64,000 nucleotides of DNA from a virus, in the IMG/VR virus record IMGVR_UViG_3300020442_002661, positions 21,963 through 85,962 of that record. One strand, given 5' to 3'. Positions 1,762 through 44,374 of this stretch are shown here, piece after piece. Made by a program: the position numbers and the translations under genes. A model generated the notes under the pieces. The model was given only the letters and a program-made list of their open reading frames with translations, had not been told where the DNA came from and ran no database searches. Position 1 is the first letter of the stretch. Every line of letters starts with the position of its first letter.

Positions 1762-2231
1762 CATTCTACATATAAATGTTTATTAGTAACCTTCTTCAAA
1801 CTCTTAATATCGCGAAAGTTGTAGTCTTTAAGTAGTTGTTCAAGCAACTGAAAATCGTACCCACTTTTGTGAACGTCCCAAAGATCAAATTCGCCTTCTC
1901 TTTGCCAACCCCAAAAGCCTGCCTTTGCATGATCCATATTAGATCTTTGTAGCCATTGGTTAATATGAAATGCCATATTAGGCAACATCATTGACATTTT
2001 GCCGCCTGGCTTTAATATATTATACCATGCTTGTAATACTTTTTCGCCTTGAATGAAAGTAAGATGTTCAAAAAAATGTCTAGAAAATATTTCGTCTACA
2101 GTGTTTAGTTCAACATGTCTTTCAATTTCCCATGCTGGACATACAAAATCTACACCTGGTACATTCCTTATGTCGCATGTTTTGAATCCTGCCATTGTAG
2201 GATTCTCTCCCGAACCAAACTCTATATTCAT
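1743..2231 (-). CDS. SAM-dependent methyltransferase (type 11-like)
   Basis: The 162-aa protein starts almost directly with the SAM-binding loop (EFGSGENP, residues 4-11). An acidic residue follows (CDIRN), then a post-motif (RHFFEHL) and LKPGGKM, in the order of class I methyltransferases of the Methyltransf_11 type. At 162 aa it is short, close to a bare Rossmann core, so it may need a partner or be specialised for a small substrate. The start overlaps the stop of the upstream gene by 4 nt (ATGA type), which indicates translational coupling. Its 3' end overlaps the convergent hydrolase gene. Neighbouring glycosyltransferases suggest a sugar substrate, but the sequence does not prove it. Confidence 0.75.
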   Translation of the reverse strand: MNIEFGSGENPTMAGFKTCDIRNVPGVDFVCPAWEIERHVELNTVDEIFSRHFFEHLTFIQGEKVLQAWYNILKPGGKMSMMLPNMAFHINQWLQRSNMDHAKAGFWGWQREGEFDLWDVHKSGYDFQLLEQLLKDYNFRDIKSLKKVTNKHLYVECYKPAK

Positions 2232-3127
2232 TCATATTTCTTTCTTAAATGTTCCCATGGCAAGCCAGCAATACATTCGTCTTCTCGCCATTGACAGTAT
2301 CCTAAATTATTTAACCATTGTTGCCTTTCAAACATTACTGGTTGTTCAATCAATTTTAAACTTTTATTTGAAACATCATATGCCATACAACTTGGACACA
2401 TGCTAAAAGTAGGAATGCCTTCCATTGCACTTTCTGTTAAGGCATTACTGTTAAATCCAACAACACACCAAGCATCATCAAAGTCTCTTTGTAAACCTGC
2501 TCCGCCTTCTAGTAATCCTGCACCATCTGTATTTTTGCTTATCTCTACATCAAAGTCTTTTAGAACTTCCATTTGTCTGTCTTGCCTTAACGGATGCATA
2601 CGCACACGTATTGGTCTATCTGTATAAGTTTGTATCTCTTTAAGCGTATGACTAACAAACCCTTTATAAGTTCCGTGCTTTTTAAGTAAATTTACAAGAC
2701 TACTATCGCCAGGACGTTGTAAAATAACAAGAACATAGTCGCCATTAGATTGCCAATCTTTTACAGTTAAATTTTGATCTTGTTTAATTTGTTCCCATCT
2801 ATCGCTTGGACTATTTTCATTACAGTAATCACCTTCATCTCTAAAATAACTTGTCCAACTGTATCTATGATATGCCATTGGATTTGGTGGTGCTGGCATA
2901 TTTTTTCTAAACACTGCGCTTTCTGTAACAATATAAGGCTTGCCAGAATCCTTTACATATTTGTATATGTGTCCAATTTTCTTTTCTTTTTTTGATCCTG
3001 ATTGGTTACTTTGCACAAGCACGTCTGCTGTTTCTATAGAATCTACATCTGCAAATGGAACCGTTATCCAATCTTTAGGTAGCGGATGATAACTCCACAT
3101 TAATTCTTCAATAGCGACTATTTTCAA
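2228..3127 (-). CDS. Polysaccharide/glycerophosphate-transferase-like protein
   Basis: This 299-aa protein has no full domain match I can name with certainty. The second half carries RMHPLRQDRQ and, about 60 residues later, SNALTESAMEGIPTF. This resembles the GT-B C-terminal pattern of KDO transferases of capsule synthesis and CDP-glycerol glycerophosphotransferases, where a Ser/Thr-Glu-Ala-x-x-x-Gly-x-Pro stretch contacts the nucleotide. The N-terminal half would be the acceptor domain. It overlaps genes on both sides (4 nt downstream, 20 nt upstream), so it belongs to the same transcription unit as the methyltransferases and uvsY. The call is a motif-level guess. Confidence 0.45.
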   Translation of the reverse strand: MKIVAIEELMWSYHPLPKDWITVPFADVDSIETADVLVQSNQSGSKKEKKIGHIYKYVKDSGKPYIVTESAVFRKNMPAPPNPMAYHRYSWTSYFRDEGDYCNENSPSDRWEQIKQDQNLTVKDWQSNGDYVLVILQRPGDSSLVNLLKKHGTYKGFVSHTLKEIQTYTDRPIRVRMHPLRQDRQMEVLKDFDVEISKNTDGAGLLEGGAGLQRDFDDAWCVVGFNSNALTESAMEGIPTFSMCPSCMAYDVSNKSLKLIEQPVMFERQQWLNNLGYCQWREDECIAGLPWEHLRKKYE

Positions 3128-12748: not shown

Positions 12749-12763
12749 TATATACTACTTTAA

Positions 12764-13818: not shown

Positions 13819-13819
13819 G

Positions 13820-15345: not shown

Positions 15346-15350
15346 ACTAA

Positions 15351-15358: not shown

Positions 15359-15380
15359 CTGGAGAGAAAAGTGCGTATAA

Positions 15381-15410
15381 AAAGAAAAAGGGTGACCGAA
15401 GCCACCCTTT
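15381..15410 (-). terminator. Terminator after gp19 with UUCG tetraloop
   Basis: On the minus strand AAAGGGTGGC-TTCG-GTCACCCTTT forms a stem closed by a C-G pair over TTCG and ends in TTTTTCTTTTT. This is a classical stable tetraloop terminator between gp19 and the baseplate gene. Confidence 0.85.
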
Positions 15411-15436
15411 AAAATCTATGGCAATTTGTTTAGGTA

Positions 15437-16069: not shown

Positions 16070-16087
16070 ATGTTTCTCCTGTTACAG

Positions 16088-16095
16088 TATTTATC
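16088..16095 (-). promoter_or_regulatory. T4-type late promoter GATAAATA of gp19
   Basis: It lies 18 nt before the gp19 ATG with AGGAGAAAC between. It is placed just after the small hairpin that follows gp18. Confidence 0.7.
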
Positions 16096-16102
16096 AATTA
16101 AC

Positions 16103-16124
16103 GGACCCCATATTTCAGGGGTCC
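16103..16124 (-). terminator. Possible terminator after gp18
   Basis: GGACCCC and GGGGTCC form a 7-bp stem with an 8-nt loop just after the gp18 stop. Only a short T-rich tract (GTTAATT) follows on the minus strand, so it may be a weak terminator or an RNA-stabilising hairpin. Confidence 0.5.
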
Positions 16125-16134
16125 ATTTAAACTA

Positions 16135-19377: not shown

Positions 19378-19410
19378 ATTCATTCTCCTTTTGGAATAAG
19401 TGTTCATTAG

Positions 19411-19418
19411 TATTTATG
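19411..19418 (-). promoter_or_regulatory. T4-type late promoter CATAAATA of gp18
   Basis: It lies 33 nt upstream of the chosen ATG at 19377. A further ATG at 19407 is only 3 nt below the motif and lacks a ribosome site, so the downstream start with AGGAG is preferred. Confidence 0.65.
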
Positions 19419-19438
19419 TGTTTTGTAATTAATTTGCC

Positions 19439-19444
19439 TATAAT
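19439..19444 (+). promoter_or_regulatory. Sigma70-like -10 box TATAAT for HNH gene
   Basis: A perfect TATAAT lies 27 nt upstream of the ATG at 19472 on the plus strand. A convincing -35 was not found, so the call rests on the -10 box alone. Confidence 0.4.
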
Positions 19445-19471
19445 AGCACCAGAAAAAGGGGTCAAAAAGGT

Positions 19472-19825
19472 ATGGTAAATAACAATATGAGACCATTATG
19501 TGTTTGTAAACAAAGACCTGCGGCGGTAAACTATAAAAAAGAAGGCAAAGTATACTACAGAAAAAAATGTGAAGTGTGCCTTAAAGGAAACCGTATAGGT
19601 GTAGGAATACCAAAGTGGAAGTTATCAGGATATATCAAAAAAGATACTTGTGAAAAATGTGGATTCAAAAGCAGACACAAAGAACAGTTCAATGTCTATC
19701 ATATTGATGGAGATTTGAATAATTGTTTGCCAAACAATTTAAAAACTGTATGTGCTAACTGTCAACGAATTATGCAGAAACAAGGCGTTCGTTGGAAGCA
19801 AGGAGACCTAACACCTGACTTCTAA
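19472..19825 (+). CDS. HNH-like endonuclease with zinc-binding Cys pairs
   Basis: This 117-aa protein has several CxxC or CxC pairs (LCVCKQ, CEVC, CEKCGF, CANC) and an HNH-like centre, VYHIDGDLNNCLPNNLKTVC. There the His and the Asn-Leu-x-x-Val-Cys pattern match HNH nucleases stabilised by zinc. It could be a homing-type or DNA-processing endonuclease. It sits as a lone plus-strand gene between the sheath gene and the gp1 operon. The ATG at 19487 is a possible alternative start. Its end overlaps the convergent gp1 gene by 56 nt, and this overlap region codes on both strands. Function is from the motif only. Confidence 0.6.
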   Translation: MVNNNMRPLCVCKQRPAAVNYKKEGKVYYRKKCEVCLKGNRIGVGIPKWKLSGYIKKDTCEKCGFKSRHKEQFNVYHIDGDLNNCLPNNLKTVCANCQRIMQKQGVRWKQGDLTPDF

Positions 19826-20378
19826 GTTCATCCATAGTACCGTTGTTGTGTATTGTTAGGGTGTATCCTGCATTTGCCCAACGCCATTCGCTTTCATGTA
19901 TGTCCTTAGGTTCTACACCAATATCTTGATACATTCTGAACCATACAGGATCAATGCCACGTTGTACACGCCATACTTTGCCGCCAATTTCTTTAATCAT
20001 TTTAATTTCATTTGGAAAACGTACATCTGGGATTATAAAGTTTTTATTAGGATTTTGTAGTATGTGTTGTTTTGTAAGGCTAACCCAAATACCATCATAA
20101 AAGCCCTTACGCATACAATCTGTGCCATATTCTTGTAGCACTAATCTTGGAGTGATTGTTCTGCCTGTTTCTTGTGTCCAAAAAGTATCAACTGTTTCTC
20201 GCCATTCACGACTTTCGTCAGTATCGCCTTCTAGCATTTGCCTATCCCAATTAAAGACACTTGCTACACCGTCTTTTAATTTGTCAGCAAAACTTATTTT
20301 TTCATAACCTTGTTCAACAAGTACATCAGCAACAGTACCTTTACCACTGCCTATCAAGCCACATAAGCCAATTATCAT
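19770..20378 (-). CDS. 1: gp1-like deoxynucleoside monophosphate kinase
   Basis: The 202-aa protein has a P-loop at the start (GLIGSGKGT, 7-15), then DKLKDGV and a long stretch including TPRLVLQEYGTDCMR. This matches the T4 gene 1 dNMP kinase, which makes dNDPs for replication. A further part, FIIPDVRFPNE, is typical. It is the last gene of a short minus-strand operon, 4 nt overlapping the second oxygenase gene. Early-type expression fits a nucleotide enzyme. The end overlaps the plus-strand HNH-like gene. Confidence 0.9.
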   Translation of the reverse strand: MIIGLCGLIGSGKGTVADVLVEQGYEKISFADKLKDGVASVFNWDRQMLEGDTDESREWRETVDTFWTQETGRTITPRLVLQEYGTDCMRKGFYDGIWVSLTKQHILQNPNKNFIIPDVRFPNEIKMIKEIGGKVWRVQRGIDPVWFRMYQDIGVEPKDIHESEWRWANAGYTLTIHNNGTMDELRSQVLGLLASNERLVSA

Positions 20379-22464: not shown

Positions 22465-22472
22465 GATAAATA
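22465..22472 (+). promoter_or_regulatory. T4-type late promoter GATAAATA of gp14
   Basis: The motif ends 5 nt before the ATG at 22478. Another ATG (22472) overlaps the last base of the motif and cannot be in the transcript, so 22478 is the start. Confidence 0.75.
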
Positions 22473-22477
22473 TGTTT

Positions 22478-23635
22478 ATGCCAAGACTATCTTTATATAA
22501 ACCAGAAAAAGGCAGGGATTATCATTTCTTAGACAGACAAATTCAAGAAATGTTTACTGTGGGCGGAACAGACATATTTGTTCACAAATACCTCGGGCCT
22601 GAAAATCCAGCAGAAGCAGATGCTACAGCAGATCAGCCTCGTTATGATGCTGTCAAAAGTACAAATATACAGGACATGCTATTTTTAGAAAATAGAGATC
22701 GAAAGTATGATCCAGACATTTATACTATGCGAGCTGTATATAATGTTCAAGACATAGACTTTGATTTGAGTCAATTTGGTATGTTTTTGAGTAACGATAC
22801 ATTGTTCATGACAATACATATAAACAGTAGTGTAAAGACACTTGGTAGGAAAATTATGAGTGGCGATGTAATTGAACTACCACATTTGAAAGACGAGTAT
22901 GCACTAAATGATCATACAATAGCATTAAAACGCTTTTACGTTGTTGAAGATGTTAATAGAGCCGCTGAAGGTTTTTCACCTAGTTGGTATCCACATTTAT
23001 ATAGATTAAAATTAAAACAGATTGTTGATTCACAAGAATTCAAAGAAATACTTGATCTTCCAGCAGAAGAAGGTTCAGACAACACACTAAGAGACTTGCT
23101 TTCTACATATGAAAAAGAAATGCAAATTAACAATGCAGTTGTAGATCAAGCAGAAGTAGATGCTAAAAAATCAGGATATGATATTAGCCATTATTACACT
23201 TTAGCAACAAATGATGATGGCACAGTTGCTTTAACTACTGCTGATGAAACAGATATTGATGCAAGTAGCGTAGGATCAAATGCAAGTGATGTACATGAGA
23301 AACCTAGTAGATTAGGCTATCAAGGTTATTTACTTGGCGTTGAAGAAGGACCAAACGGTGCTCCATATGGTATGGGCATAAGTTTTCCATCGCAACCAGA
23401 AACAGGTGATTACTTTTTACGTACTGATTACATGCCAAAAAGATTATTTAAATATGATGGAGGTAGATGGGTGAAAATGCAAGATGGTGTTCGTGTTGAC
23501 CTTACAAACACAGATACAAGAAATACTCAAAAAACTACATTCATTAACAATACAAAAACAAATACTATTGGTGGTGAACAAGTTCAAGAAAGACAAAGTC
23601 TTTCAAAAGCACTTAGACCTAAGGCAGATAATTAA
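22478..23635 (+). CDS. 14: gp14 neck protein
   Basis: This 385-aa protein matches the T4 gp14 neck protein, which links the head to the tail. The first 190 residues (RDYHFLDRQIQEMFTVGG, then RDRKYDPDIYTMRAVYN, then LHINSSVKT-like strands and ALKRFYVVED) follow the known order. T4 gp14 has 256 aa. The extra C-terminal part ends with a module carrying TGDYFLRTDYMPKRLFKYDG followed by GRWVKMQ; the same pattern appears in gp15 and the sheath insertion. The start at 22478 is chosen by its late promoter. Its stop overlaps the gp15 start by 1 nt (TAATG). Confidence 0.8.
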   Translation: MPRLSLYKPEKGRDYHFLDRQIQEMFTVGGTDIFVHKYLGPENPAEADATADQPRYDAVKSTNIQDMLFLENRDRKYDPDIYTMRAVYNVQDIDFDLSQFGMFLSNDTLFMTIHINSSVKTLGRKIMSGDVIELPHLKDEYALNDHTIALKRFYVVEDVNRAAEGFSPSWYPHLYRLKLKQIVDSQEFKEILDLPAEEGSDNTLRDLLSTYEKEMQINNAVVDQAEVDAKKSGYDISHYYTLATNDDGTVALTTADETDIDASSVGSNASDVHEKPSRLGYQGYLLGVEEGPNGAPYGMGISFPSQPETGDYFLRTDYMPKRLFKYDGGRWVKMQDGVRVDLTNTDTRNTQKTTFINNTKTNTIGGEQVQERQSLSKALRPKADN

Positions 23636-25107
23636 TGCAACATTTTTATGATGGACAAATAAGAAGATACGTTACTCAAATGGTAAGACTTATGAGTAAT
23701 TTCTCTGTAAAAGATGGTTCAGGTACATTAAAACAAGTTCCTGTTATGTATGGTGATTTAACTAGACAGGTTGCAAGTATTATACGAGATAATAGTGAAA
23801 ACAAAATACCTAGTGCTCCACGTATGGCAGTTTATATAAATTCATTAGAAATGGATAGGTCTAGAACAGCTGATGCAAGTTATGTTAGCAAAGTAAATAT
23901 CCGTGAACGTGCTTATGATGAAAACAACGAGGAATATCTAAATACACAAGGTAAAAATTATACTGTAGAACGACTTATGCCAACGCCTTACACCCTTGGC
24001 TTTACTGTTGATATATGGAGTTCAAACACAGATCAAAAATTACAGATTATGGAACAAATACTTACATTGTTCAATCCTAGTTTAGAAATACAAACAACAG
24101 ACAACTATATAGACTGGACAAGTTTAAGTGTTGTTAATATGGAAGGCATTACATTTAGTTCAAGAAGTATTCCTGTAGGTGTTGACAGTGACATTGATGT
24201 TGCTAACATGACATTTACAACACCTATCTATTTGTCACCTCCTATTAAGGTTAAGAGACTAGGTGTTATTACAAATATTATAACAAGTGTATTCAACGAA
24301 GATAAAGGTACAATAGATTTAAGTTTGAGTAGACCTGAATTAAAAGCATATGATGATAGTGTAATAGCTGGATCTAAACCTACAACAGATGGTAACACTG
24401 AAACTGTAAACGACAGTAACGCTATACCTGTTAACGTAAGTCATAAAAATTATGGTATTTACATCACAGGTACTATGGCGCAATTAGTTGCAAACAATAG
24501 AGTAGGTAGCACTAATTGGCGCAATGTAATTGATACTTACCCTGGTCAATATCAAGATGATATTAGCAGGTTGTACATAAGACGCAGTGACGAAAATAGA
24601 GATGTTACAGGAACAATTAGTTTAAATCCAAATGATGAAACACAATTAATGGTAAATTGGGATTTAGATTCATTCCCAAGTAATACTATAATAAATGGAC
24701 CTACTAGATTAAATGCACAATGGACAAGCATAGATTACATAATAGATCCATTAAAAACTAATCCTATTACAGAAAACATGCGTGGACTTGGATCTCGTAT
24801 ATTATTGTTAAATGATATAGGTGATGCTGATAACGGAAATGAAGGTCCATCAGCATGGGATGGTAATTTCCAAGGTACTGATCTTGTTGCAAGTAAAGAT
24901 GATATTGTTGAATGGGATGGTAATCAGTGGCGCATTGTATTTGATGCAAGTGAAAATAAATTAGTATACAACGATGAAGTTTTAACCACAGTATACACAA
25001 CTAACCTAAAAACAGGTATACAATATCGTTGGGATGGTTCAGATTGGCTATTAAGTGTTGAAGGACTCTATCCAAACGGTACCTGGCGTCTAAGCCTAAA
25101 CGGCTAA
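23635..25107 (+). CDS. 15: gp15 tail sheath stabiliser/terminator
   Basis: This 490-aa protein resembles T4 gp15 (272 aa), the ring at the top of the tail. The start FYDGQIRRYVTQMVRLMSNF parallels the T4 start (FYNSSFRRY). Later segments (PTPYTLGFTVDIWSSNTDQK, then QIMEQILTLFNPSL) match the core, including the pattern 'IVEQILPYFQP' in T4. The extra C-terminus has two copies of a 'WDG..W' motif (VEWDGNQWRIV, YRWDGSDWLLS) as in the neck and sheath proteins. It is co-translated with gp14 and followed by the sugar cassette after 8 nt. Confidence 0.8.
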   Translation: MQHFYDGQIRRYVTQMVRLMSNFSVKDGSGTLKQVPVMYGDLTRQVASIIRDNSENKIPSAPRMAVYINSLEMDRSRTADASYVSKVNIRERAYDENNEEYLNTQGKNYTVERLMPTPYTLGFTVDIWSSNTDQKLQIMEQILTLFNPSLEIQTTDNYIDWTSLSVVNMEGITFSSRSIPVGVDSDIDVANMTFTTPIYLSPPIKVKRLGVITNIITSVFNEDKGTIDLSLSRPELKAYDDSVIAGSKPTTDGNTETVNDSNAIPVNVSHKNYGIYITGTMAQLVANNRVGSTNWRNVIDTYPGQYQDDISRLYIRRSDENRDVTGTISLNPNDETQLMVNWDLDSFPSNTIINGPTRLNAQWTSIDYIIDPLKTNPITENMRGLGSRILLLNDIGDADNGNEGPSAWDGNFQGTDLVASKDDIVEWDGNQWRIVFDASENKLVYNDEVLTTVYTTNLKTGIQYRWDGSDWLLSVEGLYPNGTWRLSLNG

Positions 25108-25115
25108 TTATTTTT

Positions 25116-25556
25116 ATGGACAAGATTATTTGCAGTGGAACTCTCTTTTATAGCCTCTCGAGTAAACGTTATTTGTTACTTAGACGTTGTGAAGGTAGAA
25201 CTAAAGGTACATGGGGACTTGTAGGCGGAACAAACGAAACTACAGAAACTCCTTGGGAAGCATTGAAAAGAGAAATATCTGAAGAAATAGGAAAACTGCC
25301 TGATATTCAAAAAACAATTCCACTTGAAACTTTTATTAGTACAGATCAAAAATTTCATTTTCACACTTATCTTTGTACAGTTCAAGAAGAATTTATTCCA
25401 GTGTTAAACAAAGAACATGACGGGTATGCGTGGGTTACTTCAGGTGGTTGGCCAAAGCCTTTACACCAAGGTTTGCGTAATACACTTAATAGTAAAATTA
25501 ATCAAGAAAAATTAGAAACAGTAACAAAAGTTCTTGATTTAATGTCTCAAATGTAG
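25116..25556 (+). CDS. NUDIX hydrolase
   Basis: This 146-aa protein has a complete NUDIX box: G38, E44 and REISEEIG (52-59), matching G-x5-E-x7-R-E-x2-E-E-x-G-x. Such enzymes split nucleoside diphosphates linked to another group, such as nucleotide sugars, dNTPs or caps. It begins 8 nt after gp15 and is followed by hldE. A role in sugar-nucleotide housekeeping within the cassette is plausible; the sequence does not say more. The hldE promoter lies inside its last codons. Confidence 0.85.
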   Translation: MDKIICSGTLFYSLSSKRYLLLRRCEGRTKGTWGLVGGTNETTETPWEALKREISEEIGKLPDIQKTIPLETFISTDQKFHFHTYLCTVQEEFIPVLNKEHDGYAWVTSGGWPKPLHQGLRNTLNSKINQEKLETVTKVLDLMSQM

Positions 25557-25562
25557 TATAGT
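25534..25562 (+). promoter_or_regulatory. Sigma70-like promoter of hldE
   Basis: TTGATT (25534-25539), 17 nt and TATAGT (25557-25562) lie in the last codons of the NUDIX gene, with the hldE ATG 5 nt below. Transcription would start at about the ATG, so the sugar cassette may be expressed apart from the late gp14 unit. Confidence 0.55.
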
Positions 25563-25567
25563 AAATT

Positions 25568-26815
25568 ATGATAAGAGTATATGGCGATATAATGCTAGAC
25601 AGGTGGATTAAAGGAGTATCACAGCGTGTTAGTCCTGAAGCACCAGTCCTTGTGTTACAAGAAGAAGAACAAATATTCTGCCCAGGCGGAGCAGGTAATC
25701 TTGCATTAAATATTGCAAGTCTTAATGGTAGTGTAAATGTATATGGTAGTATTGCACCAGATAAAGAAGGTTATAGAATTATTGATTGCTTTGAAAAGCA
25801 TCCAAAAATTAATTTTGCCGCTACACTAGATAGTAAAATTACAACTACAAAAAATAGATTAGTAGGTCAAGGAGGGCAACATATTGTACGTTGGGATAGA
25901 GAAGAACTTTATACCGGCGACGAAGCATACGAAAGATGTATAACAGATATAACAACAAAAGACATTGTGGTTGTAAGTGACTATGCAAAGGGAACTGTAA
26001 AAGAAAAAACTGTTTGGAATTTTGCTAGACGCTGTAAAACACTAGTAGATCCTAAACAAGCCCCTGCATATTATCAAGGAGCATATCTTGTAAAACCTAA
26101 TATGAAAGAATATGAAGGTTGGTTCGGAACATTCAATAAACTAGATGCATTAGATCATATTAAAACTTACGAATGGACCTATCTTGTTGTTACAGATGGT
26201 GCAAACGGTATGCATGTGTTAAGCGATGATGGAAGATATGAACATATTCAAGAAGAAGCAAAAGAAGTAGCAGACGTTACTGGTGCTGGAGACACTGTAC
26301 TGGCTGTCATTGCATACTTTATTGAACAAGGTTTAGATATGTTTGATGCTTGTAGGAAAGCATGTTATGCCGCGGCAAGAGCTGTAGAACACAGAGGAGT
26401 TCATGTAGTTACACATAACGACCTAGAAAAAGTAGTTTTTACAAACGGTGTTTTTGATATCTTGCACAAAGGACATTTACACTTATTGAAAGAAGCACGT
26501 AGTTTAGGTAATAAACTGATTGTAGCAATTAATACAGACGCAAGTGTACAAAGATTAAAAGGAAACGGCCGTCCTATTAACGATGTTCAAACAAGACAAG
26601 CACAATTAGAAGTATTGCCTTGGGTAGATGAGGTCATTACATTTACAGATGATACGCCTTTAGAACTTATTAATAAAATTAAACCAGATTTAATTGTCAA
26701 GGGTGGCGATTATAAAGTTGAAGATGTTGTTGGCCATGAGATTGCAGATGTGCATATTGTGCCTATAATAGACGGATTGTCGACATCTAATATAGTAGAA
26801 AAAATTACAATATGA
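25568..26815 (+). CDS. hldE: HldE-like bifunctional heptose kinase/adenylyltransferase
   Basis: This 415-aa protein has two domains. Residues 1 to about 285 are a PfkB-type kinase: DRWIKGVSQRVSPEAP, GGAGNLALNIASLNG and the late anion-hole motif VTGAGDTV. Residues of about 290-415 are a nucleotidyltransferase with TNGVFDILHKGHLHLL and VKGGDYKVEDVVG. This is the order of HldE (RfaE), which phosphorylates heptose-7-phosphate at C1 and later adds AMP in ADP-heptose synthesis. HldE is usually near 475 aa, so it is slightly short but carries both sites. It overlaps hldD by 4 nt. This is strong support for a phage heptose route. Confidence 0.85.
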   Translation: MIRVYGDIMLDRWIKGVSQRVSPEAPVLVLQEEEQIFCPGGAGNLALNIASLNGSVNVYGSIAPDKEGYRIIDCFEKHPKINFAATLDSKITTTKNRLVGQGGQHIVRWDREELYTGDEAYERCITDITTKDIVVVSDYAKGTVKEKTVWNFARRCKTLVDPKQAPAYYQGAYLVKPNMKEYEGWFGTFNKLDALDHIKTYEWTYLVVTDGANGMHVLSDDGRYEHIQEEAKEVADVTGAGDTVLAVIAYFIEQGLDMFDACRKACYAAARAVEHRGVHVVTHNDLEKVVFTNGVFDILHKGHLHLLKEARSLGNKLIVAINTDASVQRLKGNGRPINDVQTRQAQLEVLPWVDEVITFTDDTPLELINKIKPDLIVKGGDYKVEDVVGHEIADVHIVPIIDGLSTSNIVEKITI

Positions 26816-27636
26816 ACTTACTAATTACTGGCTCAAACGGATTTATAGGAAAAAATCTTGTAAATTATTTTGTTGATGAAGGACATACAGTTGCAGAATA
26901 TGATTACATAGAAAATGTAATTCCTGATTGTAGTCCTTTTGATCATGTTATTCATATGGGTGCTATTAGTTCTACAACAGAACGTAACGTAGAACAAGTC
27001 TTAACACAAAACTTAGATTTTAGTCATAGACTTTTACAAATTTGCGAAATGCAAGGAGTAAATTTAATTTATGCATCAAGTGCAAGCGTTTATGGAGATA
27101 CAGGCGTATTTAAAGAATATGGGCCCGTATATCCACAAAGTGCATATGCATGGAGCAAATACTTGTTTGACAGAACAATAAATCAAGTTGATAAAAAAGA
27201 TTGGATGTGCAACGTAAAAGGATTAAGATTCTTTAATGTTTACGGAGAGCATGAGGAAGATAAAGGTGATCAAATGAGTGTTTTTCATAAATTTAAAAAC
27301 CAAGCATTAGACACAGGAAAAGTTCATCCATTTGAAAATAGTAAAGAATATTTGAGAGATTTTATATATGTCGGCGATGTATGTAAAATTGTAGATAAGT
27401 TGTTAGATGTAGATGATAGTGGCATATACAATGTAGGTACAGGTACACCACGTAGTTTTCAAAGCATTGCAGAAGCAGTTGCAGAAAAATACAATGCAGA
27501 CATAGAACCAATACCTATGCCAGAAATACTTAAACAACAATATCAAAAATATACTTGTAGTGACAATACAAGACTACTTAAAGCAATAGGTAAATTTAAT
27601 TTTACAACACCGGAGGAATGGATATGCAAAGACTAG
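26812..27636 (+). CDS. hldD: HldD-like ADP-heptose 6-epimerase
   Basis: This 274-aa SDR protein has the NAD(P) loop TGSNGFIG (6-13), a YAWSK catalytic motif and HldD-like segments: GAISSTTE, YASSASVYG, RFFNVYG, EYLRDFIYVGDV and the final FQSIAEAVAEKY with IEPIPMPEILKQQYQ. HldD epimerises ADP-D-glycero-D-manno-heptose at C6. Normal length is about 310 aa. It overlaps hldE and the cupin gene (13 nt with the chosen cupin start). The match to HldD hallmarks is closer than to general epimerases such as GalE, but the exact substrate is inferred. Confidence 0.8.
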   Translation: MNLLITGSNGFIGKNLVNYFVDEGHTVAEYDYIENVIPDCSPFDHVIHMGAISSTTERNVEQVLTQNLDFSHRLLQICEMQGVNLIYASSASVYGDTGVFKEYGPVYPQSAYAWSKYLFDRTINQVDKKDWMCNVKGLRFFNVYGEHEEDKGDQMSVFHKFKNQALDTGKVHPFENSKEYLRDFIYVGDVCKIVDKLLDVDDSGIYNVGTGTPRSFQSIAEAVAEKYNADIEPIPMPEILKQQYQKYTCSDNTRLLKAIGKFNFTTPEEWICKD

Positions 27637-28046
27637 AAGGTAAAGTAGATAAAGGTTGGGGCTACGAAATAATTTGGGCCACAAATGAAAAATACTGTGG
27701 TAAAATACTTTTCTTTAACAAAAAAGGTTCAAAGTTTAGTATGCACTTTCATAGAGAAAAAGACGAAACATGGTTTGTTAACAACGGCAGTTTTGTTGTA
27801 CGCTGGATAGATACAAAAACAGCAACATTGTTTAGCCAAGTTCTTAAAGAAGGACAAACTTGGCATAATCCACCATTGCAACCACATCAATTAGAAGCAA
27901 TGGAAGATGGAAGCAGTATTACAGAAGTCAGCACAGCAGATAGTGTTGAAGACAACTACAGAGTAATTCCAGGTGATAGTCAATCGGAATTAACAACAAA
28001 AATTAAAGAGGTGGCAGATGCGCAGTCCAACGATAACGTGGAGTAA
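27624..28046 (+). CDS. Cupin protein in the heptose cassette
   Basis: This 140-aa protein has a single cupin barrel (KGWGYEIIWATNEKYCGKIL, then HFHREKDETWFVNNG and PPLQPHQLEA) with His residues placed as metal ligands. It starts with GWGYE, as sugar-phosphate isomerase or polysaccharide-related cupins do. The start at 27624 is chosen because GGAGG lies 7 nt upstream; the ATG at 27618 is too close to it. It overlaps hldD (13 nt) and the phosphatase gene (29 nt). It may isomerise or epimerise a sugar; function unproven. The nucleotidyltransferase-cupin at 340-1113 carries a related domain. Confidence 0.65.
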   Translation: MQRLEGKVDKGWGYEIIWATNEKYCGKILFFNKKGSKFSMHFHREKDETWFVNNGSFVVRWIDTKTATLFSQVLKEGQTWHNPPLQPHQLEAMEDGSSITEVSTADSVEDNYRVIPGDSQSELTTKIKEVADAQSNDNVE

Positions 28047-28653
28047 TGATGTAAACATTGATTTCTACAAACCAGATTATATTGCACCAAAGTGTGTTGT
28101 AGGTTTAGATAGAGATGGTGTTATTAATGTAGATATTGGAGATTACGTTTACAAAAAAAGTGACTGGAAATTTGAAGAGGGCAGTTTAGAAGCAATAGTA
28201 AAATTACGTAAATTAGGACACAAGATAGTTATTATAACTAATCAAGGCGGTATAGAAAAAGGTATCTACACACAAGAAGATGTAGAAAAATTACATGCAC
28301 ATATGTTTGAAGAATTTGGTAAGGCAGGTTGTCCTAGTATAGATGGATTGTACTACAGTGCATCAAGTGCAAAGAATGATATGTATGCAAAACCTAATAC
28401 AGGAATGTTTAAGCGTTGCGAAAAAGAAGTTCCTCATGTGAAATTTTCCCAAGGATATTATGTTGGTGATAGAATAAGAGATTTAAAGGCAGGATTAAAG
28501 ATGGGTGCGAAACCAATTCTAGTCCGAACTGGACATGGTAAAGAAACAGAAGAATTAATTAACAAAAGATTCACATATAAAAATATTAGGAAAGCAACAA
28601 AAGTATTTGATAACCTAGCCGCATTTGTTGATAGTTTAGATGATAATAGTTAG
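28018..28653 (+). CDS. gmhB: GmhB-like HAD phosphatase
   Basis: This 211-aa HAD-III enzyme has the catalytic GLDRDGVIN motif near residue 30 (first Asp the nucleophile), ITNQGGI, KPNTGMF and YVGDRIRDLKAG. It resembles GmhB, which removes the C7 phosphate from heptose-1,7-bisphosphate between the two HldE steps. The zinc-binding Cys/His loop of E. coli GmhB before the KPxPGM motif is absent (SASSAKNDMYAKP instead), so it may be a zinc-free variant. The first 25 residues are an extra stretch. Ribosome site GAGGTGG precedes the ATG. It overlaps the cupin and the next gene. Confidence 0.75.
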   Translation: MRSPTITWSNDVNIDFYKPDYIAPKCVVGLDRDGVINVDIGDYVYKKSDWKFEEGSLEAIVKLRKLGHKIVIITNQGGIEKGIYTQEDVEKLHAHMFEEFGKAGCPSIDGLYYSASSAKNDMYAKPNTGMFKRCEKEVPHVKFSQGYYVGDRIRDLKAGLKMGAKPILVRTGHGKETEELINKRFTYKNIRKATKVFDNLAAFVDSLDDNS

Positions 28654-29200
28654 AGACGATTACATTCCACAACATATACAAGATTATTTACATACAGCAG
28701 TATTTGGTACTGAAGAAATAAATGCTATGTTGCCCTTAACTGCAAAAGTAGAGCCCACAGCATATGATGGCGAAAATCCTTTGCCTGTTAGTTTTCAACA
28801 TGTGTTTATGAGTAGTACAAGTCACACAGAATGGTTTGGAAATTTTAGTAAAATACCACAAATAGTATGTAAGAAAATGGAAGTAGAGCTAATAGATATT
28901 ATTGCCGCAAGACTTTTTATAACTGTTCCGCACAAAACTAAATTAGAACATTATGCACCGCACACAGATAGACCAGAACCTCATCTTGGCTTAATTTATT
29001 ATGTAAACGATAGCGACGGAGACACACTTTTCTTTGACGATCCTAGTTTAGAAAACAATTGGAAACCAGAGATTATAGAAAGAGTAAGTCCAAAAAAAGG
29101 ACGTATTGTCTTGTTTGATGGTAGTCATTTACATGCAGGTGGATATCCTACTGATGTGCCTCGCTGTATTGTAAATTACAACATTAGAGCTGAACGTTAA
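28640..29200 (+). CDS. 2OG-Fe(II) oxygenase (prolyl-hydroxylase-like)
   Basis: This 186-aa protein has the full iron/2-oxoglutarate site: H108-T-D110 in YAPHTDRPEP, a distal His in GSHLHAGG (163/165), and R175 in VPRCIVNYN. The strand pattern (HLGLIYYVNDSDGDTLFF) is that of the small hydroxylases of phages. It follows the GmhB-like gene with overlapping ends and closes the plus-strand sugar cassette. Its stop shares TTAA (29197-29200) with the convergent 2475-aa gene. Unlike the tandem pair at 20375-21633, the H-x-D motif is intact. The substrate could be a sugar, a peptide or a small molecule. Confidence 0.8.
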   Translation: MIIVRDDYIPQHIQDYLHTAVFGTEEINAMLPLTAKVEPTAYDGENPLPVSFQHVFMSSTSHTEWFGNFSKIPQIVCKKMEVELIDIIAARLFITVPHKTKLEHYAPHTDRPEPHLGLIYYVNDSDGDTLFFDDPSLENNWKPEIIERVSPKKGRIVLFDGSHLHAGGYPTDVPRCIVNYNIRAER

Positions 29201-38024: not shown

Positions 38025-39830
38025 TTAGGTGTTTTTTACAGTGATTAATTTGCCGTATTCAGGTAGATACAAGTACTCAATTTCACTATTTTGCAAGGTC
38101 CAAATAGCATCTTCAAGTTTTTCTACTAGAGGATCACCACCTAAATTAAAACTTGTATTGAATATAATAGGTAATCCTGTCTTTTCTTTGAATACTTTTA
38201 TAAGATCATAGTAATGCGGATTCTGTTCATGTGTTACTGTTTGAATACGACAAGTGCCATCTACATGTATAATACTAGGAATTTTTTCTGCTATTCCTTC
38301 TTGACAGTTGACAGCATACATCATATGCGGACTGTCGTCCATTCCACGTAGATCGAACCATTCATGCACATCTTCTTGTAGTATAGATCCTGCAAATGGA
38401 CGGAAATATTCTCTACGTTTTACTTTGTTAACATAATCTTTGCCATCTTCAAAACTAGGATCAAATAAAATACTTCTATTACCTAATGCTCTTGGACCGT
38501 TCTCGCTTTGGCCTTGGAAAATAGTTACAATATTCTTTTTTGTAAGCAATTCTACAACTTCTTCATGTGTAGAATCTTTCATTTCAACATCATCTGCACT
38601 AGTAAGCTCTTGTAATTGATCTTCAGTGTATGAATATTTTGGTCCTAAATATAATGTTTGTGTTTGACGCTTTTCAGTTTCGTCTTCTAGCCCATACCAA
38701 AACATCATTGCGGCACCCATTGCAGTACCAGCATCATTTGACACAGGCTCTACATACATTTCAATTCCTTTTTCACGTAACGTTTCTAAGTAATAATAGT
38801 TTGCAACACAATTTAATCCATATCCGCCACTCACTACTACTTTTTTCTTGCCTGTCATTTCGACTGCTTTTAGTATAAGATCTAAAACTTTTTCTTGTGT
38901 TTGTGTTTGCACAGCATATGCAATGTCTCTTCTACTTTGCAATAGAGTAACATCTTCTCCTTGGCGTGCAGGTTCTTTTAATTCATCGTATAAACCAGCG
39001 TTTATAAATGCGCCATTTGGATAATTTGGTACAACAATATTTCTATTTGTTAAAGGATACACTGCACCTTCTTCAAATAATTTTGGAAATTTATCATTTG
39101 GTTTACCATATGGAAACAAGCCCATTGTTTTTCCTGCTTCAATACTTGACCAACCGCAGTACATAGTTGCCGCTTCATATGCCTTTACAATTCCTGCTCT
39201 GTCATGTACAACTGCTGAGTGTGTTTTTCCATTTTCACCAAACATACTACTATCCATTTGAATAGCGGCACCTGTTACAGGTTCTCTTGTTCCATAAACT
39301 TTGTGTAGTGTAGAAAAGTTTGCAGGATATTCGCAATCAATAATACTTTCTGTTTCCCATGTCATGACTTGTTCTTCATTGATAGACAAAGGAATAAAAG
39401 TTCCTGCGCCATCAACAATAACACTTACTGCACTATCAAATCCTGAACGATAAAATGCACATGCACTATGAAGTTTGTGGTGCATAAATGCTAAATCTAT
39501 TACTTGTGGATGTTCGTATGTAGTAGAGTTAGACTTTTGATCTATCAATCCTAATTTTCTAGCAAGTCCTGTGTACACATCATCACCACTATAGTCAACT
39601 CTACCAGCAGTATCTCTCAATGATTGAGTATGTGCAACTACAAGATAATCTAACTTATCTGTATACTCTAAAATTTTGACCATACTTGCAAATGGTCCAC
39701 CGTCATATTTTTGTCTGCTTAATCTTTCTTCTTCAATAGAAAATATTACTTCTCCATCTTTAAGCAAGCATACGCCAGCATTGTGTCCTCTTGCAATACC
39801 TGCTATCCAAACTGGTTTTTTATCGCTCAT
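38025..39830 (-). CDS. NodU/TobZ-type carbamoyltransferase
   Basis: This 601-aa protein has both domains of the family. The N-terminal ASKHA part has ARGHNAGVCLLKDGEV, IEEERLSRQKYDGG, HHKLHSACAFYRSGF and VDGAGTF. The C-terminal YrdC-like part has QGQSENGPRALGNRSILFDP and REYFRPFAGSI. Members make carbamoyl-AMP and transfer the carbamoyl group to a sugar hydroxyl; WapO of Pseudomonas carbamoylates LPS heptose. The start directly follows the stop of the SGNH-like gene, and GT9 is next upstream, so the three form one unit. Length is normal for the family (about 570-610 aa). Acceptor unknown. Confidence 0.85.
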   Translation of the reverse strand: MSDKKPVWIAGIARGHNAGVCLLKDGEVIFSIEEERLSRQKYDGGPFASMVKILEYTDKLDYLVVAHTQSLRDTAGRVDYSGDDVYTGLARKLGLIDQKSNSTTYEHPQVIDLAFMHHKLHSACAFYRSGFDSAVSVIVDGAGTFIPLSINEEQVMTWETESIIDCEYPANFSTLHKVYGTREPVTGAAIQMDSSMFGENGKTHSAVVHDRAGIVKAYEAATMYCGWSSIEAGKTMGLFPYGKPNDKFPKLFEEGAVYPLTNRNIVVPNYPNGAFINAGLYDELKEPARQGEDVTLLQSRRDIAYAVQTQTQEKVLDLILKAVEMTGKKKVVVSGGYGLNCVANYYYLETLREKGIEMYVEPVSNDAGTAMGAAMMFWYGLEDETEKRQTQTLYLGPKYSYTEDQLQELTSADDVEMKDSTHEEVVELLTKKNIVTIFQGQSENGPRALGNRSILFDPSFEDGKDYVNKVKRREYFRPFAGSILQEDVHEWFDLRGMDDSPHMMYAVNCQEGIAEKIPSIIHVDGTCRIQTVTHEQNPHYYDLIKVFKEKTGLPIIFNTSFNLGGDPLVEKLEDAIWTLQNSEIEYLYLPEYGKLITVKNT

Positions 39831-40697
39831 TTAAAATCCTCTGTAATAATTACCCCAACCTTTAAGTTGTTTTCCTATACTATCAACAAAATAATCAAAA
39901 TCACCGTGTGTGCTAGTATAGCAGTTGTTTACTATATCTATCCATTTTTCTACTTGTTCAGGAGTATTCTGGCTTATATTTAATTTTGGTTTAACAACAT
40001 AATTCACGTAATCTGCATGTTGATTAATAGTAGGATGCCTATCTATATTAGGAGTAACACTATTTCTTATAATAAATTTGTATGGTTTTTCTGTATGTGT
40101 CCATGCAAAAACTCCAATAGGTTTTAACCATCTATCATTAAATATTTTATCTTTGTATTGTTTCAATTTAGGAATATCTTTCCATACATCTATTTTATTT
40201 GTGCTTTCTCCTTCACCGTTTCCGTCTTGAGGATAGTCACTATTCATTTTATTAATATACCCCATGCTTGTCATGTAATAATTAACACCAATACCTTCTA
40301 GAAACTTTTGTGTAAGCAGTATGTTATTAAGCGTATGCATCATATAACTATGTTCATCGAAAAAAGTTTTTATCCACTTTTCGTCATACAAATTTGCATT
40401 TATAAAATTAAAAATACTGCCAGATGTTTTCCAACCAACACCTGGTTGTGTATCATGACGCTGATCAAGTGTGTGCCAGTCATGTCTTAGATGACTTGTC
40501 CATTGTATTATTACTGTATCTTCTGGTGTTAATGTTTCTGATGCATGTAAATTAGCAACACGTTCTGCGATAGCTCTGTTGCCTAGTCCAGGATAAGCCC
40601 AATTTTCGTATGTGTCAAACTCACAACCTAGTATATCAGCCCAAGTAGGCCAAGCATAGTTTGTAAAAGAACACCCTAGTGCATAAAAACGTTTCAT
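39831..40697 (-). CDS. SGNH-hydrolase-like protein
   Basis: This 288-aa protein starts KRFYALGCSFTNY, the block I Ser motif (G-C-S-F-T) of the SGNH-like group found in marine phages. A GNRAIAERV segment could hold block II/III residues, and DRHPTINQHADYVN near residue 225 fits the D-x-x-H block V with Asp and His. Typical roles are deacetylation or acetylation of sugars and esters. It abuts the carbamoyltransferase start with no gap and overlaps the GT9 gene end by 1 nt, suggesting joint action on a glycan. The catalytic role is inferred from motifs. Confidence 0.6.
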   Translation of the reverse strand: MKRFYALGCSFTNYAWPTWADILGCEFDTYENWAYPGLGNRAIAERVANLHASETLTPEDTVIIQWTSHLRHDWHTLDQRHDTQPGVGWKTSGSIFNFINANLYDEKWIKTFFDEHSYMMHTLNNILLTQKFLEGIGVNYYMTSMGYINKMNSDYPQDGNGEGESTNKIDVWKDIPKLKQYKDKIFNDRWLKPIGVFAWTHTEKPYKFIIRNSVTPNIDRHPTINQHADYVNYVVKPKLNISQNTPEQVEKWIDIVNNCYTSTHGDFDYFVDSIGKQLKGWGNYYRGF

Positions 40698-41641
40698 TAT
40701 TCTGCGTCTGGATCATTTTCTCTTTTGATAACGCCAACAATATATTCACGCAGATTATCATCCATTTGCATTATACCTTCGTTAGCTCTATTAACAGTTT
40801 CGTCAACTGTAATTCTAATAGGATCGTATTGTCTATCTTTCATTCCCATGTCTACAATTTTTAATTTTTCTTGTCCTGGATATGATATGTTAATCGGAAA
40901 AGTAGATCCAACAACAACAGTAGTTTCTGTATCAACAGCATATGACAAATGTTGTCCAACACTATCACAACCTAAGAAATGATCTGCGGCTTTGATTACA
41001 CTTGTCCACTGCCTTAATCCTAGCCCCTCTGGCATAGCAACTTCGTTTTTCAATCCTTCACCTTTGAGCTCCATTTTCAATTCGCTCATCATAATAATTC
41101 CGTAATCTTTTTCTATAAGTTTTAATAACCTTTTTACATCAGCCCATTCAAAACTTCTTCCTGTTGAGTCCATAGGTGTTTCATTAATAATTTCTACACC
41201 TCTACCAAAAGGTTGGAATACTAATACTTTATCTTTTTTTAATTTTTGTTTTACTTCGTCAACTATTTGACGTCCTACAAGTATTTCATTATGACTTAAT
41301 TTTACAAAAGGTTTATCTAAATCTCTGACTCCTTTTTCATTAAGTAGAATATCAAATGCTTGTGATAAATTACATTTTTGATTATAGTATTCCCATACTT
41401 GATATGGTTCTGGGTTTACTACTTGCCTATGTTTTATTTCGCTTTCAAAAAGATTTTTATGCCAAGGATCGTATGCACGTTTATGTAGTGTAGGATGACC
41501 TTTAAACATATCTGTGCCACCTTCACATACGATAATAAAATCTTTATCTCCTGATTCTTCTTCATATTTTTCTAGTGCAGGAATAGAACACAGCATACGC
41601 CCAGCGCCGCCATTTAGAAAAAATGCCTTCGATCTTGTCAT
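40697..41641 (-). CDS. GT9 (heptosyltransferase-like) glycosyltransferase
   Basis: This 314-aa protein resembles the GT9 family, which includes WaaC/WaaF heptosyltransferases that use ADP-heptose. The start FLNGGAGRMLCSIPALEKY matches the G-G-x-G-D-x-L-x-x-x-P-A-L loop, with R in place of the usual D. The C-terminal part has FLGCDSVGQHLSYAV and VVGSTFPINISYP, in the place of the D-[ST]-G-x-x-H nucleotide-sugar motif. Because ADP-heptose genes are also present (25568-28653), a heptosyl-transfer role is attractive. Sequence is divergent, so confidence is moderate. It is the first gene of the unit with the SGNH-like protein and carbamoyltransferase. Confidence 0.6.
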   Translation of the reverse strand: MTRSKAFFLNGGAGRMLCSIPALEKYEEESGDKDFIIVCEGGTDMFKGHPTLHKRAYDPWHKNLFESEIKHRQVVNPEPYQVWEYYNQKCNLSQAFDILLNEKGVRDLDKPFVKLSHNEILVGRQIVDEVKQKLKKDKVLVFQPFGRGVEIINETPMDSTGRSFEWADVKRLLKLIEKDYGIIMMSELKMELKGEGLKNEVAMPEGLGLRQWTSVIKAADHFLGCDSVGQHLSYAVDTETTVVVGSTFPINISYPGQEKLKIVDMGMKDRQYDPIRITVDETVNRANEGIMQMDDNLREYIVGVIKRENDPDAE

Positions 41642-42458: not shown

Positions 42459-43415
42459 TTAGCTTTCTATATATTTAATTCGAACGATGCTATCACCACC
42501 GGCCCATCCATTATCTCTAACACCTGAACATGGTGTAGCCGCTGGACCACCTGATCCGTGTGGTACAAACATCGAACACCCTTGTGTTTGGTAACAACCA
42601 CAATGTCTATTACCGTCCCAACATTCAGTCCAATGACTTCCTGTGCCTGGCATTCTAGACAAACTATTTAGTGCGTTAATATAGCCTTGTATAGCCATTC
42701 CGGACCAATCTGATTGTCCATTGTCTGAGTCTAATGAATATGTTGCTACGCCACCGCACTCACTAAACATGCCTGGTGGTAATGCTGTATGGTGTTGTGT
42801 TGAACAGTTACAATTTGGATAGCAGTGCCAAAAAGTTACACAACTATATACTGTATCTCTGTTTACGTCTCCGCCGTAAGCATTTGCTTGCCAACTGTTA
42901 GCACATCTGTTACAAATGATACCGCAGTATCCGTTATACCTAGTTGAGCACCAGTTATTTGCTGAAAAACAGCACCAACGAGCTGTACCAGTTGTACACC
43001 AACTTGCACCACTCCATCCGCCTTCTGCACAAATACATCCATTGTTTCCTGAATTTCCTTGCCAGCATACTCTACCTGCTTCTGAACAACCTCTGTGACA
43101 TAAACTACCGTTACGACAACTCTTACCTGCATAACCACAAATCCAACATGTAGCCGCTACGTTAATTGTTTTCTTTGCATATGCACCAGAATTACCTGAA
43201 ATTGTTGCAGAACAACAGCACATTCTTGAAGCCGATCCGCCAGCGCCGATAACTTCTAATTCTACAGTTGCACTGCCCGGTGATATCCAACAAAAACATC
43301 CTGGGTATGTTGAGTAAGTTGCAACTTGTGAGTAGGACCAAATTTTTCCTTTTTCCAAGTTCTCCTCAACGCTGGCTGGACTTCTGCTCTGTAATAATGA
43401 TCTTAATCCTGCCAT
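42459..43415 (-). CDS. Cysteine-rich virion-type protein, copy 2
   Basis: This 318-aa protein contains 30 Cys (about 9%) including a CCC triplet near residue 65, many CxC and CxxC groups, and 13 or more Trp. The order is: a short helical start, beta strands ending in VELEVIGAGGSASRM, a Gly/Cys-rich centre, then GGPAATPCSGVRD and VRIKYIES. Start and end resemble Gly-rich fibre-tip domains of phages. It is a paralogue of the next gene (43418-44374, same length, same Cys pattern). A GGAGAG site stands before the ATG. Such Cys content in a protein folded in the cytosol suggests metal clusters or disulfide formation after release. Confidence 0.7.
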   Translation of the reverse strand: MAGLRSLLQSRSPASVEENLEKGKIWSYSQVATYSTYPGCFCWISPGSATVELEVIGAGGSASRMCCCSATISGNSGAYAKKTINVAATCWICGYAGKSCRNGSLCHRGCSEAGRVCWQGNSGNNGCICAEGGWSGASWCTTGTARWCCFSANNWCSTRYNGYCGIICNRCANSWQANAYGGDVNRDTVYSCVTFWHCYPNCNCSTQHHTALPPGMFSECGGVATYSLDSDNGQSDWSGMAIQGYINALNSLSRMPGTGSHWTECWDGNRHCGCYQTQGCSMFVPHGSGGPAATPCSGVRDNGWAGGDSIVRIKYIES

Positions 43416-43417
43416 GT

Positions 43418-44374
43418 TTAACTCTCCACAAACTTAATTCTAATTGCGCCCATTCCACCTCTAACAGCATGATCTCTCACGCCTGGGCAAGGCTGAGGTC
43501 CTGGTCCGCCAACTCCGTATGGTAACATACTTTGACAACCGTTAGTGTGATAACAACCACAACTTGTGTCGTTTCTAAAACAACCTTTCCATTGTGTACC
43601 CATTCCTGGGGATTTTCCTGTACCGTTAATTGCGGCTAATGCACTGCCCCAACCCATACCCGACCAATTCGAGTGAGCTGAATCACTATCCATTCCGTAA
43701 CCAACAACGCCTCCACATTCTGCAATCATGCCTGGAGGAAATGCAACAAAGCCTCTAAATAAACAAATACATGATGGGCGGCAACCATGGAAGCCCATAC
43801 ATGAAATGTTTCCGCATCTGTTTACGTCTCCGCCATATGCAATAGCGTCCCATTGTCCTGTACATTGATTACAAATTGTACCACAGTTTGGTCCTGTATT
43901 TGTATGACAGAAACCGCCTGCTCTAAAACAACAGTACATACTTGATCCGGTTGAACAATAACTTACTCCGCCTTTACCGCCTCTTGCACACATACAACCG
44001 TTTGTTGATGAGCTAAACCAGCAAAGCATAGTAGGTTCTGAACAACCTCTAAAGCATAATGCGTCTGAATTTCCACAAGCAAAACCTACACAACCGTATA
44101 TGTAGTTGCTTGTTCCCATTGTAATTGTTCTTTTACTGTAAGAACCGGAGTTACCTGGTAAACCATTACCACAACAGCACATTTTAGCACCAGAACCACC
44201 AGCACCCCACATTTCAATTGTCACTGTTCCTGTGGCAGTTGGACACCAACAAATACATTTACAAAACTTAGTATATGTATTGCCCTCCGCAAAGCTATAG
44301 ACTCTTCCAGTTTCTAGGTTATCTTCACCTTTACTCGGAACCTTAGCTTTAATTAGTGTTTCTAATGATGCCAT
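43418..44374 (-). CDS. Cysteine-rich virion-type protein, copy 1
   Basis: This 318-aa protein has 32 Cys (about 10%), with CKCICWC near residue 38 and the CCC triplet at about 65. Its skeleton aligns with the downstream copy: VTIEMWGAGGSGAKMCCC, then RGCSEP, GDVNR, PPGM-x-x-ECGGV, G-C-Y-H/Q-T-x-G-C and a C-terminal IRIKFVES. The copies are a tandem duplication with much divergence outside Cys and Gly. An AGGAGAAG ribosome site precedes the ATG. The Gly-rich core resembles adhesin tips at the ends of phage fibres, so host contact is a reasonable guess. No signal peptide is present. Confidence 0.7.
   Translation of the reverse strand: MASLETLIKAKVPSKGEDNLETGRVYSFAEGNTYTKFCKCICWCPTATGTVTIEMWGAGGSGAKMCCCGNGLPGNSGSYSKRTITMGTSNYIYGCVGFACGNSDALCFRGCSEPTMLCWFSSSTNGCMCARGGKGGVSYCSTGSSMYCCFRAGGFCHTNTGPNCGTICNQCTGQWDAIAYGGDVNRCGNISCMGFHGCRPSCICLFRGFVAFPPGMIAECGGVVGYGMDSDSAHSNWSGMGWGSALAAINGTGKSPGMGTQWKGCFRNDTSCGCYHTNGCQSMLPYGVGGPGPQPCPGVRDHAVRGGMGAIRIKFVES

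Follow-up and report, generated by a model that had tools for sequence, protein, structure and literature searches.

The stretch of viral DNA analysed here (the window, 64,000 nucleotides) covers bases 21963-85962 of the 85,962-base IMG/VR record IMGVR_UViG_3300020442_002661, a fragment of the genome of a marine T4-like myovirus with a G+C content of ~36.5%. The terminase of this virus is closest to PA5oct-like phages (~53%), and cyanophages are not its nearest relatives. According to the coordinates of the open reading frames (ORFs), six plus-strand genes form a run at 25116-29200, which likely encodes an ADP-heptose pathway. The run lies directly behind the neck genes gp14 and gp15, its first intergenic gaps measure 8-11 bp and the gene ends that follow overlap. 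At its 3' end, it stands tail-to-tail with the minus-strand gene for a structural protein of 2475 amino acids. The genes for HldE, HldD, a cupin and a GmhB-like protein adjoin with overlapping ends exactly as a preliminary description of the locus had it. The features are:

22472..25107, plus strand: gp14- and gp15-like neck/tail-completion genes (phrog_11591, virion structural, 7e-92; PF16724, T4 gp15 tail sheath stabiliser, 7.5e-28)
25116..25556, plus strand: Nudix hydrolase, with which the cassette begins (PF00293, 6e-15)
25568..26815, plus strand: HldE, D,D-heptose-7-phosphate kinase (residues 1-287) and heptose-1-phosphate adenylyltransferase (288-415) (PRK11316, TIGR02198, TIGR02199)
26812..27636, plus strand: HldD, ADP-heptose 6-epimerase (TIGR02197; PDB 1eq2)
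27618..28046, plus strand: metal-binding cupin of the cassette (HxHxxKxE...H), candidate isomerase of sugar phosphates (PDB profile match to D-lyxose ketol-isomerase)
28018..28653, plus strand: GmhB-like HAD phosphatase (heptose 1,7-bisphosphate 7-phosphatase) without zinc loop (PRK08942; PDB 4pnh)
28640..29200, plus strand: 2-oxoglutarate (2OG)-Fe(II) oxygenase, final gene of the run (PF13640, 7e-7)

The predicted transcription unit that includes the cassette is headed by the gp14/gp15-like genes, and the 2OG oxygenase is a possible tailoring enzyme. A scan for promoters and terminators gave a result no better than chance. The late-promoter motif TATAAATA occurs at two sites in the window versus 8.6 expected, with none within the operon, and is uninformative on the operon; both sites (1119-1126 and 62314-62321) are on the minus strand, immediately upstream of minus-strand genes.

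Identity of the heptose enzymes

Enzyme identity was assessed by searches of NCBIfam, Pfam and PDB, with the NCBI equivalog cut-offs serving as thresholds for family membership. Heptose enzymes rank first in the NCBIfam and PDB searches, and the Pfam matches are consistent with this for the superfamilies. HldE matches PRK11316 at 4.4e-105 (352 bits, cut-off 521), its kinase domain TIGR02198 at 7e-68 (229 bits, cut-off 345) and its adenylyltransferase domain TIGR02199 at 1e-47 (161.5 bits, cut-off 181.5), and its best PDB matches are 4e84 (HldA) and 5x9q. HldD matches TIGR02197 at 1.6e-71 (241 bits, cut-off 274.6), far ahead of the next unrelated family, galE (1.5e-20, 73 bits), and the HldD structure 1eq2 at 8e-40, with the next non-heptose enzyme at 5e-16. 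For the GmhB-like protein, the matches are PRK08942 (5.7e-40, 136.8 bits, cut-off 178), TIGR00213 (100.8 bits, cut-off 149.6) and PDB 4pnh (3e-24). The ORFs are thus no chance frames, and their best matches are the heptose enzymes that the preliminary description had named. GDP- or dTDP-sugar enzymes in place of HldE and HldD, which it had named as the competing assignment, are ruled out since the heptose families lead by wide margins.

The catalytic motifs are likewise intact. The GAGD, HxGH and checked KGGDY positions of HldE are invariant in the window protein and in 78/78 relatives, and the STxxI positions are kept in 73-78 of the 78, allowing Thr/Ser at one of them. In HldD, Tyr112, Lys116 and Lys151 are invariant (71/71), and Ser90 is present in 68/71 with Thr in the other 3. 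The HAD motifs DxDG, TNQ, K and GD of the GmhB-like protein are kept in 24-25 of 25. With heptose families this far ahead of all others and the catalytic motifs conserved, we read the run as a heptose pathway.

Two peculiarities noticed at the outset hold up. HldE is short (415 amino acids), with the linker between its domains essentially gone and the kinase segments retained, and the positions of the zinc-loop Cys/His residues in solved GmhB are occupied by Ser, Ser, Met and Ala, the first being Ser in 24/25 GmhB-like relatives. The suggestion that these features point to a variant heptose is not supported: what HldE of the window lacks is essentially the linker only. A broader form of this idea is that the cassette makes a related but different sugar, i.e., a variant nucleotide heptose or another compound tailored by the cupin, by 2OG oxygenases or by a halogenase-like protein. 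It would fit the unreached equivalog cut-offs, the zinc-free GmhB, the tailoring-type genes that occupy variable slots in related loci and a second phage HldE subfamily of ~380 amino acids, in which two kinase segments are lost besides the linker. Yet the catalytic motifs are conserved, the window HldE keeps its kinase segments and HldD matches HldD structures far above any other epimerase, which makes a different sugar unlikely.

Conservation of the cassette and the missing isomerase

A scan with HldE found 239 viral relatives, 80 of which were fetched for comparison of their loci. Nudix lies upstream in all 80, with gp15 in 79, HldD in 71, the cupin in 62 and GmhB in 24. Of the HldE loci that extend 3.5 kb or more downstream of HldE, all (44/44) have both HldD and the cupin, and 18/44 have GmhB. 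Loci collected from the cupin, i.e., its best 80 matches and hence a set biased to close relatives, contain HldD in 80/80, HldE in 79/80 and Nudix in 64/80, in several gene orders. HldE, HldD and the cupin are therefore an obligate trio that survives rearranged gene orders. The Nudix hydrolase (25116-25556) has a fixed place upstream of HldE in this lineage. In the relatives' loci, variable slots are taken by further 2OG genes or by a gene for an SGNH-like or halogenase-like protein; tryptophan-halogenase-like genes in or beside the heptose cassette were seen at L071 7130-8566 (by eye) and L084 7538-9025 (as annotated).

Median pairwise dN/dS, calculated from pairs that are not independent, is 0.11 for Nudix, 0.18 for HldE, 0.21 for HldD, 0.24 for the cupin, 0.23 for GmhB and 0.20 for gp15. 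The cassette is under purifying selection, like the structural gene gp15. This bears on the proposal that such genes are relics or stuffer, i.e., host-derived lipopolysaccharide (LPS) genes acquired for headful packaging and of little function. A comparison from 2010 left open whether cyanophage LPS clusters are functional or stuffer DNA (PMC3037559), and the differences in GmhB and accessory genes among loci would suit the latter. However, dN/dS near 0.2, the conserved catalytic motifs and a trio kept across several gene orders argue against decaying filler, and we consider this explanation highly improbable.

The first step of the pathway is the one for which an enzyme is missing. The preliminary description had seen every enzyme except GmhA, and a search of the whole 85,962-base record, itself a genome fragment, agrees in giving no GmhA-type SIS_2 match. 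Nor was the domain found in 96 distinct related records (50 HldE-bearing and 46 new ones out of 50 others, including the complete S-SSM7 genome). Thus, the lineage would obtain heptose 7-phosphate from the host or by another route. Two candidates for GmhA were rejected. The cyanophage "phosphoheptose isomerase" (T4-GC 306; L084 [S-SSM7] 11082-11417, L253 [P-SSM2] 8119-8463) has no SIS match and looks HAD-like instead: GC306 of S-SSM7 matches the EcbF-BcbF phosphatase at 8.5e-6 and one S-SM2 copy matches HAD_PNKP at 1.3e-4, so that a repeated misannotation is corrected. The extra gene that intervenes between HldE and HldD in relatives is 2OG-like, SGNH-like or a Trp-halogenase-like flavoprotein, as judged by eye.

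A further candidate is the cassette cupin, which corresponds to GC307, publicly annotated as a "nucleotidyltransferase". Its four metal ligands (HxH, E, H) are invariant. Its top PDB profile match is D-lyxose ketol-isomerase (3e-6), with oxalate decarboxylases close behind; the matches further include L-ribose and D-lyxose/D-mannose isomerases. The blocks YCxK, HxH, KxETF, H and ExS of D-lyxose ketol-isomerase (2y0o, PF07385) align with the cupin, which has 142 amino acids in contrast to the 222 positions of the PF07385 model. The window protein does not match PF07385 and the best relative reaches 13.7 bits (cut-off 20.8); hence, we do not place the cupin in the D-lyxose isomerase family. Since GmhA was not found wherever it was sought while the cupin is always present, and since the metal ligands are invariant and isomerases are among the PDB matches, the cupin could conceivably be a non-orthologous replacement for GmhA, a doubtful but specific idea. 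It would convert sedoheptulose 7-phosphate to D-glycero-D-manno-heptose 7-phosphate in a metal-dependent manner, completing the route without a SIS isomerase and supplying a virus-specific heptosyltransferase whose targets would be virion proteins. If true, this would be a new enzyme class for heptose biosynthesis. One 160-kb record with the glycosyltransferase and carbamoyltransferase genes described below (L121) keeps the cupin and has no Hld genes, which fits either reading of the cupin. Elsewhere in the window, the protein of an ORF at 340-1113 joins an RfaE-domain-II-like nucleotidyltransferase to a cupin of the mannose-6-phosphate isomerase type.

Putative heptosyltransferase, carbamoyltransferase and possible acceptor

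The preliminary description had taken the cassette to consist of three enzymes. These are present, and the set was drawn too small: the invariant cupin belongs to it, as do a distant glycosyltransferase of family 9 (GT9) fold and a carbamoyltransferase (38025-41641). They lie on the other strand with the following neighbours:

38025..39830, minus strand: NodU-family carbamoyltransferase (PF16861, 7e-58; PF02543, 8.5e-25)
39831..40697, minus strand: SGNH-like protein (named by eye) between the GT9-like and NodU genes, present in 31/80 GT9-like loci
40697..41641, minus strand: GT9-fold glycosyltransferase, putative ADP-heptosyltransferase, phrog_8954 (predicted fold)
42459..44374, minus strand: two Cys-rich, Gly-rich proteins of 318 amino acids (phrog_4205), upstream of the GT9-like gene

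The GT9-like protein has no Pfam or NCBIfam match and falls into phrog_8954, annotated as of unknown function. Profile searches of PDB with this protein and with the Kdo (3-deoxy-D-manno-oct-2-ulosonic acid)-transferase-like proteins gave nothing convincing, and a fold comparison was therefore needed. An AlphaFold2 model of the GT9-like protein (44 sequences) has a pLDDT of 92.9, and the top 30 Foldseek matches are all chains of the GT9 heptosyltransferase family (E 6e-10 to 2e-7), led by a Veillonella GT9, WaaF, TibC and WaaC. The homolog in S-CAM1 scores 22.0 bits, exactly on the PF01075 cut-off. The NodU protein has both the N- and C-terminal carbamoyltransferase domains (PF02543, PF16861) over cut-off, and the SGNH-like protein matches nothing in Pfam, NCBIfam or PHROG. 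A second NodU-like carbamoyltransferase, of which only the N-terminal part is present, lies at 3499-4461 of L002 (record 1-19999).

The GT9-like protein has 461 viral relatives. In the 80 loci fetched, NodU accompanies the GT9-like gene without exception (80/80), and each of the 12 HldE records that reach 40 kb or more encodes the GT9-like protein. L119 and P-SSM2 carry the GT9-like gene, NodU, HldC, HldA, cupin and HldD in a single block. Cys-rich ORFs occur in 75/80 GT9-like loci, where they are also Gly-rich, in 3/80 HldE loci and in 0/80 KdsA loci; the pair of 318-residue proteins in the window are possible acceptors. Cys-rich (~9-10% Cys), Gly-rich proteins are also encoded at L085 10016-13161 and L119 2323-5262. 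The idea that the GT9-like protein is a bacterial gene found beside LPS genes was rejected: in the cellular genome collection the family is confined to 7 contigs from metagenome bins, of which L246 was inspected and has phage genes.

These observations are best explained by a functional heptose-activation module whose product is passed to the phage GT9-fold transferase and then carbamoylated by NodU, to which we assign a probability of about 0.68. Taking gene content, linkage, the conserved motifs, the modelled fold and the selection estimates together, we infer the substrates, donor, order of steps and acceptor as follows. Heptose 7-phosphate would be supplied by host GmhA or by the cassette cupin. 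HldE would phosphorylate C1 of D-glycero-D-manno-heptose 7-phosphate, the GmhB-like HAD protein would take off the 7-phosphate (a host enzyme serving in lineages without GmhB), HldE would adenylylate the 1-phosphate and HldD would epimerise C6 to give ADP-L-glycero-beta-D-manno-heptose. Transfer of this product to an acceptor by the GT9-like enzyme (40697-41641) is probable, and NodU (38025-39830) would then probably O-carbamoylate the heptose. Such a role for NodU fits since heptose in Pseudomonas LPS is carbamoylated, a modification ascribed to the carbamoyltransferase WapO (PMC8005017). What the pathway yields in the end would thus probably be a heptose that has been transferred and possibly carbamoylated.

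As acceptor, fibre/adhesin proteins of the phage itself are tentatively preferred to the LPS or capsule of the host, because the GT9-like and NodU genes sit among genes for fibre and Cys-rich proteins and because the Hld run follows gp14/gp15 with gaps of 8-11 bp. With the same enzymes, the acceptor might instead be the host envelope, an LPS core or capsule being rebuilt with Kdo and carbamoylated heptose, e.g., against superinfection or re-adsorption to debris. This is plausible, if less favoured, and is suggested by the following genes:

L002 (record 1-19999) 10212-11637: KdsA and KdsB-like genes, outside the window
Record position 18150-18995: Kdo-transferase-fold protein (modelled copy), outside the window
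Window 2228..3127, minus strand: second, homologous copy of the Kdo-transferase-fold protein, 29% identical to the modelled copy

KdsA exceeds its equivalog cut-offs (334.5 vs 242 and 321 vs 314 bits) and has at least 467 viral relatives. The model of the Kdo-transferase-fold protein (pLDDT 81.9) finds KrkA, KpsC and WbbB as its first matches, and KdsC (TIGR01670) has no match in the record. Near the Kdo genes, an NCS2-type purine/uracil permease and GTP cyclohydrolase I were recognised by eye (L002 11892-13184 and 13772-14461). Envelope modification is further in line with the L,D form produced by HldD, which is the form used in LPS, TibC having been solved with ADP-D,D-heptose; with WapO-type carbamoylation as a feature of LPS; and with the LPS modification proposed for such genes in papers. 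However, the GT9-like and NodU genes are embedded with fibre and Cys-rich protein genes, apart from the Kdo genes; the complete S-SSM7 genome has the heptose cassette and no KdsA; and a position in the late operon would be late for superinfection exclusion.

Several observations weigh against the proposed module or its protein acceptor. All four enzyme matches score under the NCBI equivalog cut-offs; this is expected for diverged phage copies, and orthology is therefore proposed rather than certified. GmhB is without representation in 26/44 HldE loci. The GT9 placement is fold-based, with ~11-14% identity and TM-scores to the query of ~0.5-0.6. By motif comparison, what we take to be the catalytic Asp position of WaaC and TibC is apparently Arg in the GT9-like protein, the invariant Arg14 of a GGAGR motif. 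Hld genes are missing from 7/13 GT9-like records of more than 100 kb, so the donor of the GT9-like enzyme may be host-supplied or another sugar. The Kdo arm speaks for LPS or capsule, and not for protein, as the acceptor; Kdo together with heptose is the signature of the LPS inner core, and this is the chief argument for the host envelope.

Comparison with known systems

Heptose genes borne by phages have been reported before (PMC7378029, PMC7029224, PMC10653327, PMC3037559). The view that their presence in a phage is unusual is accordingly set aside, as this gene set occurs in cyanophages too, in matching surroundings (PMC3037559, PMC7378029, PMC7029224). The cyanophage "LPS" cassette T4-GC 302-308, seen in P-SSM2, S-SSM7, S-CAM1 and Sf-FS3, shares with the window the GT9-like (GC302), NodU (GC303), HldC (304), HldA (305), cupin (307) and HldD (308) families and lies next to tail-fibre genes or the neck genes gp13-15. 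In contrast to the window, this cassette has HldE split in two and HldD encoded on the opposite strand, with the small HAD-like GC306 taking the place of GmhB, whereas in the window the GT9-like/NodU block lies ~10 kb off on the other strand. "LPS genes", annotated piecemeal, have been known from T4-like phages of the ocean ever since the early genomes of cyanophages, and parts of the cassette long stood there without explanation. The present analysis supplies a coherent pathway, a candidate end-point transferase for the large family phrog_8954 and evidence of selection. No paper describing the points listed as new below was found in the literature searched, most subscription journals being outside reach.

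The phage has equivalents of HldE, GmhB and HldD of the E. coli ADP-heptose pathway (GmhA, HldE, GmhB, HldD) with intact motifs. It differs in that GmhA was not found, HldE has no linker, GmhB is zinc-free and a cupin is a fixed partner. With the GT9 ADP-heptosyltransferases WaaC, WaaF and TibC, the phrog_8954 protein has its predicted fold in common; it differs in its identity of 11-14%, its membership of a widespread virus family and the apparent loss of the catalytic Asp. By fold, TibC is a protein-modifying relative of it and O-heptosylates autotransporter adhesins (PMC4358343). The phage NodU may be comparable to Pseudomonas WapO, a carbamoyltransferase-family enzyme linked to the carbamoylation of LPS heptose (PMC8005017). 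New with respect to these systems are the view of the genes as one coherent cassette, an identity for its transferase based on fold, the obligate cupin, the corrected annotation of GC306 and the evidence of selection. To these comes a version of the cassette that combines a fused HldE with GmhB beside the neck genes, in a lineage for which the terminase gives cyanophages as other than the closest relatives.

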